DNA of 64,000 bases from positions 6,158,685 through 6,222,684 of the forward strand of contig CP141140.1 of NCBI GenBank assembly GCA_035235625.1, read 5' to 3'. This stretch comes from Saururus chinensis. Taxonomy: Eukaryota; Streptophyta; Magnoliopsida; Piperales; Saururaceae. The translations under genes and the position numbers were made by a program. Each line of letters begins with the position of its first letter. Within the stretch, counting starts at the first letter, position 1. The notes under the pieces were generated by a model. It was given only the letters and a program-made list of their open reading frames with translations, was not told the origin of the DNA and searched no databases. Shown here one piece after another: positions 55,231 to 61,707 of the stretch.

Positions 55231-56207
55231 ATTAGTACAGGGGAGGTGGAAAGAGAAAGTGGCGGCAAAGGAAGAGGTGGCAAGCAGGGAGAGGAGAGAA
55301 GTAAAAGAGGAGGAGAAAGAAGAAAAAGAAAAAAATAAGAGGGGTAACTTTGTCTATTAAACCTAGTGTCCATTTTTTTTAATTGTCGCTAGTTATCAAA
55401 CCCCCAAAAAATTTACCCCAACTAATTCTATCCATTAGGTCAGGTGCGACGTCCGGTTCTTAGTATAAAAATAGGTAGTAAAATTTCAATCGTGTTTACC
55501 AAAAAATGTCAAAGGTGGCTCCACCAATGTTTAGTTTCCTATTTACTGATACTTTCCTACTACTAAGTTTTATAATAAGAGGCTCCCAGGGGGACCGGGG
55601 TAGGAGGGCCGATTAACTAACGAGAAAATATAAGGTGCCGGCTGCAAAAAGAAAAGACTGCCGGCGTAAGTTACATATCGCAAACGTAACATTACATCAC
55701 ATTCACTTTTAAGCTCCTCCCTCGGGCCTCAGCATAGCAACACAACTACATGTAATCATGGACCCTTGAAAATTTACGTCCACCCATTTTAAGTGCTTAA
55801 TAAACCCTAAAACTGTAATGAAGCATCTATCTCAAGCCAAAGCACTACTGCTGGGCTGGGAGCATCCCGAACACTGAAGATTTTGGAGACATAAACTGGG
55901 GATGAACGTTCGGGGAGTTCATCCTATCAATCGAATTAAAACCAGCTTCCGCATGATGTAGGCATCATTACGTCATACCTAGTCTTAGCTATCCGACAAC
56001 ACCAATCTCCTCACGTGATCTGTCTTCCATTAAATGTACAGGTTGAAGACTATAGCCATGCAAAAGACTTGTCTGTAACAAACCAGATCATCACAAAAAA
56101 TAGAGATCGAGATCATTGATGGTAAAAGATCAGGATTAATATATATCATTCTGATCGACATACCAAGACCCAACCTCAACTGGGTGCAACCAACTTAGCT
56201 TCCTTAT
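55231..56207. other. Intergenic stretch, nothing identified
   Basis: About 1 kb with a purine-rich start (55245-55345) and mixed composition after that. I see no gene, RNA or clear transposon ends. Confidence 0.5.
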
Positions 56208-56542
56208 GGGCCTGTTAGGGGTTTCGGAAAAAATAGATGAAAAATAAATTTTCTTGGAAAAATATATTGCATGCGGTTAGGGGCTGTAGAAAATTAAAAT
56301 ATGGAAAATTTTAGTTTTTCGACCTATGGAAATAAGGGTGGAAAATTGGAATTTATTTCCCGACCCCCGTACCCTCTGGAAATAAAATTTCCTACCATTG
56401 TCGGGTTGCTGCTCTCCGCTCCAATGTAATGGAGTTAGCTACCTCTCAGGACGCGGCCATGGCCACTCGCTATCTCCCCTTCACCGCCGCCGATCCTTCC
56501 CAACTCCACCGCGCCTTCACTTAATAAGAAGGAAGGACTCAC

Positions 56543-56699
56543 TATCGGGTCCACCGAGTTGAGTGATGGCATCGATGAACCGCTCGTGGAGCTCAGCTGT
56601 CCACCGGAGCCGGGGCTTGGGGTCAGTGGTGAGAACCAGGTAGGCATTGCGGGGGAGATTGGCCCCATCCAGAGGCCCTCCCGGCAGCCCATCACGCCA
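56543..56699 (-). pseudogene. Captured first exon of a MYB-CC (PHL2/PHL3-like) transcription factor
   Basis: An open stretch on the - strand reads PLDGANLPRNAYLVLTTDPK then PRLRWTAELHERFIDAITQL and GGPD. This is the N-terminal half of the GARP/MYB-like DNA-binding domain as found in phosphate-response PHL2/PHL3 proteins. It ends at a good donor (gtgagt at 56542) with one base (a) left over, which would complete the Lys of the family's GGPDKATPK. The next exon is not found in the following kilobase, and there is no in-frame ATG after the upstream stop. It is a single-exon fragment inside the TIR element. Confidence 0.8.
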
Positions 56700-58038
56700 T
56701 TATCTAAAGGTAGCATCGCCGATTACATTCTCCCTTGACGACCCACAACCAAATTCGAAATTTTGTGGCAAAATCCGAGAAACCCAGAGCTTCAACTTCT
56801 GGAAAGCACCCACAAAAATGTCCTTCAAAAAGTCAACCGGCGTCACCCAGATGCCTTGGAAGGCCGACTCGAAGCGGGAGCACAGTGCTCACCGGATTAG
56901 GATGTCTTAAATTTTCTTGTTATATAAGCTCTCTTTGTATGTATTATTCACTAATAAGTGTGCAGAACCGCAAGTTGGAAGGTTCTTGTGATTGCATTTT
57001 GATGAACTTTTCTACATTTCTTTTATCATATTGATATTTTATTTCAATAATATAACCTGATATATTAAAGACCTATTTCAAGTTTCAACATCTGTTGCTT
57101 GTTGAGTTCAGTTAAGAGGATGTAACCTGGTTCAGAGGTTTCCTGTGATTGGAATTTAGGATGAGAGATAGAAACCTTTGACATATTTTAGTATATTCGG
57201 TAAGAAGTTTTATTGAACACATCTGTAGAAAAATAACCACTTAAGTTTTGCTTGTTCATAATTTTGTTCTTTCTTGCAATTGGGAACACATTTGCATTTT
57301 TCACTATTAATTTATTACAGTAACTGATGAGTCTTGTTTCAACTTGTTCTCATTTGCACTTAAGTTGTTTTTTATTTTCCAGTACCTTTGAGTTCTTTTA
57401 CTTATACCGTATTATCGAATTCCGATTAAAGATGAATCTACATAAATAGATAGAACTACCTGTTACACTCTGTTTCATTAAAGACTAGTCTACATGAATA
57501 GATAGAACTACATGTTACACTCAATTTCATGTACTTTTGGCTTCTGGTCTATAAGTAGAAAATAGCGAGTGTTGAATATGAACTAGATATTAAATTTTAG
57601 GTACAGAAGTAGACTTGGTGCATATTGGATTCATGTGTTATTGAAGGGGGTTCCTTGAAATCTGAAAAGAAAGCACTTTCCAGAATCACGTCTAGATATG
57701 TTTTAAATTGGAAGTGAATTTAGGCGCCAGATTTCAATAATGCATGCTTTTGAAAGATTCCCTTGAAAGTATTTACCGAACAACTTTCAGATCTTAATAA
57801 ATCCCCTTTGTCTTCTGTTACATATTTGCAGTTCCAGAAATGGTGAAAATATAAAAAAATGATTGCAATACTTGAATGAATTGATGATTCGAGTCAACTA
57901 TGTGTTCCTTTACATTGATTTTTTTTTTTTAGCTTCTTCTTTTGATAGCTGAAGTGCAACACAAACAAGGCACCAGTTTATTTATATTTGTTAGTCCAAA
58001 TACTTGCAACTACATAGAGATGGCTTGGTTTTTTTCAG

Positions 58039-58492
58039 ATGTTCATTGGTGATGGTGCATATCTTGTTCGTGATGCTTTTCAACTGGCAAAAGAGAAATC
58101 TCCTTGTATTATATTTACTAATGAGATTGATGCAATTAGTACTAAGCATTTTGACAGGTATGCTAGATCATTAGTGTGACTGAGAGCTTCTATTATAAGC
58201 CTGCTCTTGTGCTTTTATGCAAGGTGGCACAGAGTACTTAAAGAGTAGGAAGTAAAGAAGTCATCTGGTGCTGAGGTTGCTGGAATCAGAAGCCACTCAG
58301 CAAATAAGCCTGGTTCAATTGACCTTGCCTGACTAGTAGCATATGATTTATGAGCATTTTCTCAACTAGGCATCTGATTTGAATACGTTTTTATAATATT
58401 GCCGTGAAGTCAGTGGAGATAGGGAAGTGCAGCGGATAATGTTGGAGTTACTTAATCAACTTGATGGTTTTAGCCGTGATGACAGGATTAAA
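58039..58492 (+). pseudogene. Captured pair of RPT5 (26S proteasome AAA-ATPase) exons
   Basis: Exon one, 58039-58157, reads [20 protein letters not shown] then [19 protein letters not shown]. Exon two, 58405-58492, reads [20 protein letters not shown] then GFSRDDRIK. They join in the phase expected of RPT5. The Walker B motif of the family (IIFIDEID) reads IIFTNEID, and the acceptor before exon two is ccg where cag is expected, so the copy is degraded. Exon one keeps a good acceptor and both exons keep GT donors. The remaining RPT5 exons are absent on both sides. Confidence 0.88.
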
Positions 58493-59795
58493 GTATGTAT
58501 CCTACTGTTGTTGAAAAATCTATCTTTCTCCCTTTATTTATCTGAGTCTCACTGTTTAATAATGGACAAAACATAAATGCCATAAGATGTGTTATATCCA
58601 TGTTATAAGCAAAGGTCAAGAATGGTAATGTGTTATAAGGATGGCGTTGTAATGAGCTAGATGCGCTAGTATAGTAGTTATAATCTAAAAATGGCAGTGA
58701 GTATTGGAGATAAAGAAACAATATTCTAATTTTTACCCTATTCCTTAGGGATTTAATTATTTACAAGGCAGCTTTGGTAATCCAAGGAAGTGGAAAAATT
58801 TTCTTTTTCTTTTTTATAAACTTCCAAATCTCACCAGCAAAAGAAAAAAAAGACTATGTTCTCTTCAAATTTGGTATTTTTACATGAATGCTATCACAAG
58901 CTATTGTATCCAACAGCCAACCTTAGTTGCAGTGTAGATTTAAGTGAATGAAGAGAATATAAATTAGTTATCAAACACATTTAGCTAAAAAAAAAGTGAA
59001 TAAACACAAGGTACATGAGAAAAAAACCCAAATTATTATTTATTATGTTTTTTAATAAAATTAAAATTATTATATAATAAATTATTTTTTTTACCCACAA
59101 TCATGCCAATGACTTGGCTAAAAATGATCCCTTAACCAAATAAAAAATAATTATCAAATGACCTAAATATGTTAATTCTTTATAAATATGAATTTTTAGC
59201 TAGTTTATTTTTAAAAATATACATTAATAAAGTTTTCCAGGAAATTTTTTCAAATGAACCCCTAACCATGAAAATATTTATTTCTATGAAAATTAATTGT
59301 CTTAGAAATATAATTTTCCTAGAAAAGTTACTTTTCTTAGAAATTTTTTTTTTCCAAAACCCCTAACAGGCCCTATAGTTTTACTAGAAATGTTTTTCAG
59401 AGACAAAATGTAAACTTCTCTTCAGCCCATAGCCAAACATATGTTTGATTGATGTCAAAGAAAAAACCAAATTCGTGGGTAAGCTAATCTCTAAATCTGA
59501 TAATTCTAAAAGATTGGAGAGACAAAATAATCACATCATATACACAAAAGGCACCTGCAATGGGGCCCTCTACTCTTTTTTTTTCGGTTAGACGTACATT
59601 ATAAGTTACACTTGTTAGGATACAACATGGTTCAGGAACAGATCTTGATTTAGCACAAGCCGAACTGGCTGTATAAGCATCAGAATGAGTGCAACGAACA
59701 TCATCAACCAGGCTTTTATATTCACCAGAACGACTCATTATTTCAAGGTACCTGTGCACAATTTAAGCATGACCATGAAATTTGTTTGATTGACT

Positions 59796-61707
59796 TCAAG
59801 AAGAGATGGGCTCATATGGATAGGCCAGCCATGGGTGTCTCAGAGCTTCAGATGCAGTGGGACGTTTCTTAGGGTTTACTTCAAGGAGATGTGAAACAAA
59901 ATCAATGAAACCCTGATCACCCATTGGTAATCGGTGCCTTATAGATGTCTTCTTTGGAATTAGGTACTCAAGTCTATTTGTATCCTGAAAACGACAAAAA
60001 TTGACCAATCATAACATGCCTTTGACTGCAGTTAACAGTGACTGGCTAAAGATAGTATTTGATTCCATGAGATTAAAATCATCGAAGATGGCAAAATTGT
60101 CAGCACGAAAAATATAAGAGGAAATAATTGCTGTTTTTCATTAGTTACCGGGTTCCGTTCATAAAGCATATGATTTTTTGATAAGTACTTGTATGTGTCC
60201 CGTCCCTTGGCAAGCATATCCTGGTCAATGGGCCCTATAATTCCAATTACACGCGCAAGCAAAGTTGCTGGTGAATCATTTTGGAAGAGAACCTGCTTGA
60301 AGGTCATACACTTTCAGCAATTTATGCAGAGTTCAAATTCTTACAAAGAAAAACAAAGGGTATTACAAAATGAACAAAACCCCTATGGAATTAAAATCTA
60401 CGGAAGTGCAGACTTAAATGGTTTTCAGAGACAGCCTTCCTAAGACCCAAGCATGGCACCAGGAATGCACCTTCATAAATTCCCCTATATATATCAAACG
60501 ATAAAATCTTTGCACTAAAAGCAAACAATATGATCCGAAACTAATCTACTCAGAAAGCACAGCTGTGTTATTGGTTCAGTCAAACAGGATAGAATAGTTT
60601 TAAATGCTGTCTCGTTACTGCTATTCAAACAGTAGCAAGTATACACTAATTTTGGGCTTTATTACAACCGCTGCATCCTTGACAATATTTTACCAATCCC
60701 CTCATAACTTCAATCACCTCATAAATGATATAACTTCATGCACCCATTATATGCTCTCCATAAATCACTAAAGGTCATACAAAACCACATCTTTCACTAA
60801 ATCACTCCCAAATGTTATGAATAATATAAACACTAAATTTATGTTTCCTTTTATTTCCTACACTATTTTAGTCTGATCTGTTCGTTTTACTAGTTAGAAA
60901 CTGGAATTTGACCACTGTAGCTCAACCGATATTGATATGAGCGAATTGATTAATTGCAAAATGCCATAGACTATTAATACACTTAATTTCAAATAAATTT
61001 TGTTTTGATGATTGAACAATAAAATTCTTATATTATTGGTGACAGTTGCAACAGCTTACACTTCTTACACATGCAATTAGTAAGACGGATGTTTAGCAAA
61101 TCGTCTTACATAATCCTACTAACAGAAATATACAAGATATTTAATACTAAGAAAAGTAAGAGCTTTCAATAATTCCAAAGTCAAAACATATAGCTTAAGG
61201 GCACCGCACAACTTACATTTCCTGTGCAGAGTTCTGCCAAGATACAGCCAAGTGACCATATATCAATCTTTTTATCATATGGAAGGCCCAAAATTACCTC
61301 AGGTGCACGATAAGAGCGAGACTGTACATATGAACATAAATGATCTGTTTCAAAGCAACTACTTCCTAGGTCAATGACTTTGACTTCACATCGACTATAA
61401 CTCTTCACCAAAATATTTTCAGGTTTCAAGTCACAATGTATAAGTCCAAGCCCGTGCAGAAATTGAAGTGCCTCTAAACACTGAAGTGTAATCGACTGCA
61501 AAGGATAAATTCCTGAGATTAGTAATAAAGCTTCACAGAGAGAATAAAAACCAACCTGAATCGTCTAAAATGCATATATTACTAGCAGTATGCCCAAACC
61601 TGAAGCCTTGGCATTGTAAAATAGACTTCCCCTCCTGATTCCCTATTGAATTTGTGAAATTCATATAAGTTTGCTTTGAGAAGTTCACAGACAATCAGCA
61701 AATGCTC
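59796..61707 (-). CDS. DYRK-family protein kinase, C-terminal half (5' exons beyond the window)
   Basis: This is a dual-specificity Tyr-regulated Ser/Thr kinase of the plant DYRK group. Four in-frame exons on the - strand are 61707-61600 ([20 protein letters not shown]), 61495-61217, 60292-60149 and 59984-59796 (stop TGA), 239 residues in all. Kinase motifs in order are HCDLKPEN (catalytic loop), DLGSSCF (metal-binding DLG in place of DFG), [12 protein letters not shown] (activation loop with the DYRK-type YxQSRxYR tyrosine), [12 protein letters not shown], and [13 protein letters not shown] as the C-terminus. All junctions are GT/AG. The nucleotide-binding lobe must lie to the right of 64000, since the 2.3 kb upstream contains only repeats. 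The long open stretch at 59484-59759 is best read as 3' UTR. Confidence 0.93.

Follow-up and report, generated by a model that had tools for sequence, protein, structure and literature searches.

Known gene-capturing elements

PIF/Harbinger transposons produce a 3-bp target-site duplication, usually TWA, and their autonomous elements encode a DDE_Tnp_4-type transposase together with a Myb/SANT-like ORF1. Pack-MULEs are non-autonomous elements that have terminal repeats and carry captured exons together with introns, features that are alike in the element described here; their target duplication is 9–11 bp. How DNA transposons pick up exons is debated, the two models being fusion of neighbouring insertions and copying during repair. 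Pack-TYPE elements that hold DNA of several loci are already in print (PMC8903248), and so is the transduplication of exons together with introns by PIF elements (PMC2528002).

Here, we analyse an element in a 64-kb stretch of the Saururus chinensis genome (64,000 nucleotides, referred to as the window; window positions count from its first letter). It is highly probable that the element is a non-autonomous Pack-TYPE PIF/Harbinger unit which captured a piece of a MYB-CC gene and then a piece of an RPT5 gene in a stepwise manner, and whose passengers have since decayed.

Structure and copies of the element

The element spans 3,166 bp of the window (56208–59373), and its features are collected in Table 1. 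An earlier note, made from the letters of the window, had described a 3.2-kb unit with 26-bp inverted ends. The unit stands; the length of its ends does not, as the terminal arms are 31 nt long and 90% complementary, and their alignment extends to 67 positions at 80.6%.

Table 1. Coordinates of the element and its parts in the window.
Feature	Position	Strand	Basis or remark
Left target-site duplication, TAT	56205..56207	.	flank letters
Left terminal inverted repeat, 31 nt	56208..56238	+	90% to right arm
Left transposon end, element positions 1–319	56208..56526	+	relatives without MYB match share up to position 315
Captured MYB-CC piece: upstream part, exon 1, ~16 bp of next intron	56527..56894	-	donor C5:18.826 Mb (L042)
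MYB-CC exon 1 relic, start codon to intact GTGAGT donor	56543..56728	-	stop at codon 2, 10-bp deletion versus donor gene
Captured RPT5 piece, introns included	56894..58955	+	donor C1:1.177–1.183 Mb (L012), 94.2% identity
227-bp stretch not in RPT5 donor	56963..57189	+	comparison with L012
Donor stretch with exons 4 and 5 missing	junction 57337/57338	+	L012 2500–3418 absent
RPT5 exon 6 relic	58039..58157	+	acceptor and donor intact, Walker-B Asp to Asn
RPT5 exon 7 relic	58405..58492	+	acceptor AG lost (CG), donor GTATGT intact
Right transposon end	58956..59373	+	common to relatives, including transposase-bearing L062 (87.5% over 424 bp)
Right terminal inverted repeat	59343..59373	-	partner of left arm
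Right target-site duplication, TAT	59374..59376	.	flank letters

The search of the host genome (11 contigs, 516 Mb) finds the element in full length at four places, with identities of 100, 95, 93, and 92%, i.e. at three places besides the window copy. A fifth copy of the same short form, at C7:39.5 Mb, is split by an insertion. The right end is present at at least 31 places, the four full-length ones counted in, with 40 of 385 candidates scored. A 25-base end pattern, at up to 3 mismatches, matches 154 + 162 = 316 genome sites, against 0 + 1 for the reversed-pattern control. Given the four full-length places at 92–100% identity and an end pattern found 316 times against once in the control, the unit is not a product of chance; its ends occur at many other sites, and their absence elsewhere, raised in the earlier note as a possible objection, is ruled out. 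In a genome search for the empty site, the 427 nt of joined flanks match the window's own two sides only, and an Rfam search of the window gives no match at gathering thresholds.

Assignment to PIF/Harbinger

The flanks of the window element share only 3 bp, TAT on either side; a Pack-MULE assignment was rejected on this ground, as the flanks lack a 9–11-bp target duplication. The survey of duplications covers 21 elements, the two C5 loci being read as one and the two C6 loci likewise; both ends are readable in 12 of them, and L061 brings the total to 13. Left out of the count are L002 and the C5 element, with one truncated end each, and those read at a single end (L013, L018, L019, L021, L022, L026, and L027). 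Identical 3-bp duplications flank 9 of the 13 elements (TAT 5, TAA 2, TTA 1, CTA 1) and are missing in the other four; three of the nine are the textbook TAA/TTA. In published data, TTA/TAA duplications account for 52.4% of rice and 81.2% of maize PIF elements (PMC8903248).

Transposase genes are found between or beside ends of this kind. L061 (C5:19.83 Mb), a relative 77–79% alike in the ends, is bounded by TAT/TAT and holds both a Myb_DNA-bind_3 ORF (Pfam PF12776, E 6.7e-16) and a DDE_Tnp_4 ORF (PF13359, E 1.9e-18). L062 (C7:4.45 Mb) carries a 256-aa DDE ORF, and its right end is 87.5% identical to that of the window element over 424 bp. L061 is distant and the left terminus of L062 is incomplete, so neither of these autonomous-type relatives is a closely related intact element. 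Of 150 DDE_Tnp_4 matches, at least 10, the two that were read among them, have such an end no more than 3 kb away. The interior of the window element is accounted for by the MYB piece, the RPT5 piece, and the 227-bp stretch; of its 57 stop-to-stop ORFs (longest 106 aa), five were scanned against Pfam, and these gave no transposase with a curated score. Based on the 3-bp duplications and the transposase-bearing relatives with such ends, the unit is classed by sequence as a non-autonomous member of PIF/Harbinger. It would be mobilised by the transposase of end-sharing relatives, to judge from the ends, the transposase domain, and the 3-bp duplications.

Donors of the two captured pieces

The MYB piece (element positions 320–687) is 88.9% identical to donor locus L042 over 379 aligned columns. 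The MYB ORF, 56517–56699 on the minus strand, matches Pfam Myb_DNA-binding with E 6.8e-4, its 20.1 bits falling short of the curated cut-off of 24.4, and its best solved-structure match is PHOSPHATE STARVATION RESPONSE 2 (E 1.7e-7). In L042 (C5:18.82 Mb), MYB exon 1 is open, and some 4.6 kb further downstream the same strand encodes a MYB-CC LHEQLE domain. The ORF, the Pfam and structure matches, and this donor together bear out the earlier identification of a MYB-CC factor exon on the minus strand, and the exon does end at an intact donor site, GTGAGT, as had been read. The genome holds 29 MYB matches, 11 of them tied to the family left end and 18 belonging to host genes or unassigned; the MYB piece is thus present in 11 element copies.

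The RPT5 piece (element positions 687–2748) matches C1:1.178–1.181 Mb within donor locus L012, introns included, at 92.5–94% by segment in BLAST and at 94.2% by projection, the projection value being slightly higher because the identity matrices drop insertions. L012 has nine RPT5 exons in order, as read from ORFs, from an exon taken to be N-terminal to the AAA and lid domains, the reading covering the gene up to its last C-terminal residues. Exon numbers used here are counted on the ORFs of L012. The RPT5 exons of the element match Pfam AAA (E 1.9e-7), and their best solved-structure match is 8amz_M (AAA domain-containing protein), presumably from the spinach proteasome, followed by 26S subunit 6A / RPT5 chains. 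Five L012 segments are colinear with an RPT5 paralogue on C2 (L038). This paralogue was considered as the donor and rejected, as it matches two exons only, at 85–86%; identity to L012 runs through the introns, which identifies L012 as the donor. The two RPT5 exons with their intron, proposed earlier to be consecutive on the plus strand, are consecutive in L012, and the first keeps the intact acceptor attributed to it.

The MYB and RPT5 pieces abut directly, at 56894, in opposite orientations. The 227-bp stretch within the RPT5 piece has seven genome matches, all inside RPT5-carrying copies. It was also considered that both pieces could be remnants of genes normally located at the window site. 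This is exceedingly improbable and was rejected within the host genome, for the 3.1-kb unit recurs at three other places together with its transposon ends, and each segment has a better-preserved donor elsewhere, one on C5 and the other on C1, 5 Mb away.

Order of the captures

Relatives of the element fall into several stages. The left sequence that precedes MYB was located at 23 places. A MYB match is missing from 12 of these, and in 10 of the 12 the sequence breaks off at element position 315, the point at which MYB begins. MYB without RPT5 is found at four loci (C3:5.34, C4:12.76, C1:6.25, and C4:11.50 Mb, the last with its right side unread), and the middle of these MYB-only elements has 57 genome matches. 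RPT5-derived sequence is present at eight element loci. Seven of them carry MYB as well: the window, two on C2, C8:31.5, C7:39.5, C5:4.96–4.97, and C6:44.23–44.25 Mb, the C6 copy being read as a single element over two loci with 44232000–44244000 between them unread. In the eighth, at C7:13.45 Mb, no left part is seen. Exon 6 is kept in six of the eight RPT5 carriers and exon 7, whole or partial, in seven; the C6 copy has neither. In the C5, C6, and C7:13.45 copies the RPT5 piece or the right end is longer, and the other five carriers are of the shortened form. Two of the RPT5 copies seem to be split by nested insertions, that at C5:4.9627–4.9740 Mb by about 6.2 and 0.7 kb and that at C6:44.227–44.251 Mb by about 2.2 and 18.6 kb (the 18.6 kb partly unread).

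The staged relatives, some lacking MYB, some carrying MYB alone, and others carrying MYB together with a long or a short RPT5 piece, suggest that MYB was captured first and RPT5 second, an order that they do not prove. In a tree of the left end and MYB, only one of 13 inner branches is well supported; the MYB-only elements group together at 84/96, and the data neither establish nor reject a single clade uniting the RPT5 carriers (p-AU 0.435). The earlier note had argued from two donors to at least two capture events. The two donors are confirmed, and the MYB-carrying relatives without RPT5 support separate acquisitions; the alternative is that MYB and RPT5 entered together in a single repair event and that MYB-only elements arose by later recombination with relatives lacking both. 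The grouping of the MYB-only elements speaks for such a double capture. So does the MYB piece of C3 and C4:12.76 Mb, which ends at L042 1736 rather than at 1865 as in the window element, meaning that something was lost in these two. However, the MYB-only elements have part of their middle in common with L021 and L024, which have no MYB match, so that adding MYB to an existing structure is simpler, and we consider one double capture unlikely.

A 10-bp deletion in MYB also bears on the order, as it is present in the MYB-only C3 element and missing from the C5 and C6 RPT5 carriers and from C4:12.76 Mb. It was set aside as a conflict with the proposed order. C3 has retained other letters than the short-form copies have, and the deletions would thus represent two separate slippages between direct repeats.

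Mechanism of capture

The following course of events is proposed. A starting relative without either host piece would have gained about 370 bp of the MYB-CC gene from C5. A descendant would then have gained part of RPT5 from C1, reaching from intron 3 to intron 7 but lacking exons 4–5. This probably happened when a break or gap was repaired by copying from ectopic DNA, with switches of template on the way. The copied template was DNA and not spliced RNA, as introns are retained. An internal deletion may then have shortened the element, the pieces would have decayed, and the short form would have reached at least five places.

The joins between pieces overlap by zero to a few bp, and the same donor stretch is skipped in the C5, C6, and C7:39.5 copies. 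Taken alone, the joins would fit two histories equally, either template switching or capture between neighbouring insertions with a deletion afterwards. Under the latter model, two copies on either side of each donor segment moved together with it as a single unit and lost their inner ends afterwards. Fusion of this kind is the model favoured for Pack-TYPE elements in the account cited above (PMC8903248), and the clustering of the family near the window (C1 6.215, 6.235, 6.252, and 6.276 Mb) fits local hopping. Against it, no inner transposon end was found between the MYB and RPT5 pieces of the window element, the pieces show near-zero overlap, the RPT5 piece leaves out donor exons 4–5, and the donor stretches fetched (L012, 9.0 kb; L042, 3.1 kb) contain no family end, although later deletions could hide all such signs. 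Fusion is regarded as rather unlikely, and repair copying is preferred.

Decay of the captured exons

Relative to the donor gene, the MYB start codon of the window element is followed by TAA, and the frame is also broken by the 10-bp deletion. A stop after the start position is found in four of the five short-form copies, and the 10-bp deletion in the same four; the start codon of the C7 copy is changed too, and the C8 copy is gapped there. The MYB reading is limited to codons 1–2 and the splice donor, as projection drops donor insertions and thereby shifts the frame. In RPT5, the Walker-B Asp to Asn change is present in all five short-form copies and not in the C5 copy, and the exon 7 acceptor is lost in all five and kept in C5 and C7:13.45. 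Since all five share the Walker-B change and the lost acceptor, decay preceded the spread of the short form.

The two RPT5 exons of the window element differ from the donor at 8 of 165 nonsynonymous sites and 1 of 42 synonymous sites, and five other copies show 5–6 nonsynonymous against 2–3 synonymous changes to the donor. The donor and the C2 paralogue differ in these exons by 1 nonsynonymous change in 165 sites and 21 synonymous in 42. There is thus no sign of purifying selection on the captured RPT5 exons in the counts for the window element and the five other copies; the host RPT5 genes, donor and paralogue, are constrained in these exons, and the captured copies are not. The host pieces would be passengers, with no sign of selection for protein. 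For annotation this is a warning, since in these copies the exons of RPT5 and MYB have the look of decayed passengers and not of genes.

Genomic surroundings

Part of a DYRK-like protein kinase gene lies at window 59487–61564 on the minus strand, pointing at the element; the best solved-structure matches of its kinase exons are DYRK3 and DYRK2. An ORF at 59487–59762 (minus strand), about 110 bp from the element, follows these exons in the same direction and has no Pfam match. It is a candidate last exon of the DYRK-like gene. Read-through from this gene would give RNA in the sense direction for MYB and in the antisense direction for RPT5.

The earlier note had found chimeric transcripts conceivable, and the element could in principle make functional chimeric proteins or a selected regulatory RNA. 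In line with this idea, the MYB donor site is intact, as are both splice sites of the first RPT5 exon, and the element lies some 110 bp beyond the last ORF on the kinase strand, from which read-through would run antisense to RPT5. At the protein level it is weakened by the stop at MYB codon 2, the 10-bp deletion, the lost exon 7 acceptor, and the unconstrained RPT5 exons, and a functional product of either kind is very improbable.

Elsewhere in the window, positions 1930–2913 hold a long inverted repeat (194 nt at 88% and 44 nt at 93%, with a 511-nt loop), a foldback-like unit. Four family elements lie within about 66 kb of C1, at 6.215, 6.235–6.240, 6.252–6.256, and 6.276–6.281 Mb, where about one element per 3 Mb is expected from 316 ends in 516 Mb. 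The cluster could reflect either local hopping or a preferred region.

A family relative at C6:36.0885 Mb (L025 1950–2261, minus strand) contains a fragment of a gene with an IQ calmodulin-binding motif (Pfam IQ, E 4.8e-4, 20.1 bits, just below the cut-off of 20.3), which we assume to be IQD-like. Three more matches to the IQ fragment (C9:2749052, C11:13462786, and C4:29486218) lie, by position, within about 3 kb of a family end. The IQ-motif gene is probably a third captured host gene. In a broader and quite doubtful proposal, the family would acquire genes stepwise by gap-repair copying with exon-skipping template jumps, keeping earlier pieces (MYB-CC, RPT5, and probably the IQ-motif gene), and, where a copy lies next to an active gene, antisense RNA to RPT5 could arise and contribute to small-RNA control of the proteasome subunit.

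Comparison with known systems

The window element differs from Pack-MULEs in its 3-bp duplication and in having relatives that encode a DDE_Tnp_4-type transposase. Grapevine Pifvine-3, in the part of its description drawn on here (PMC2528002), resembles it in that PIF elements carry host exons together with introns, sometimes common to several copies. Pifvine-3 has ORF1 and transposase regions and, in addition, a long 5' region that contains the host DNA, whereas the window element has no transposase among the ORFs scanned.

The features of Pack-TYPE elements are seen in the window element: no transposase was found in it, its host fragments have donors elsewhere, and it exists in multiple copies. 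With Pack-PIF elements, as presented in the sections of PMC8903248 used here, it shares a non-autonomous nature, PIF-type ends, 3-bp duplications, host coding fragments, and copy families. Compared with those elements, the window element has both donors identified, relatives at several capture stages, and captured pieces in opposite orientations; compared with the fusion examples in the same sections, it is without inner ends at its joins. As the staged elements and both donor genes persist, the junctions of each capture step can be read base by base. The element is of a known kind (Pack-TYPE, Pack-PIF), and what is new here is another member with an unusually readable capture history.
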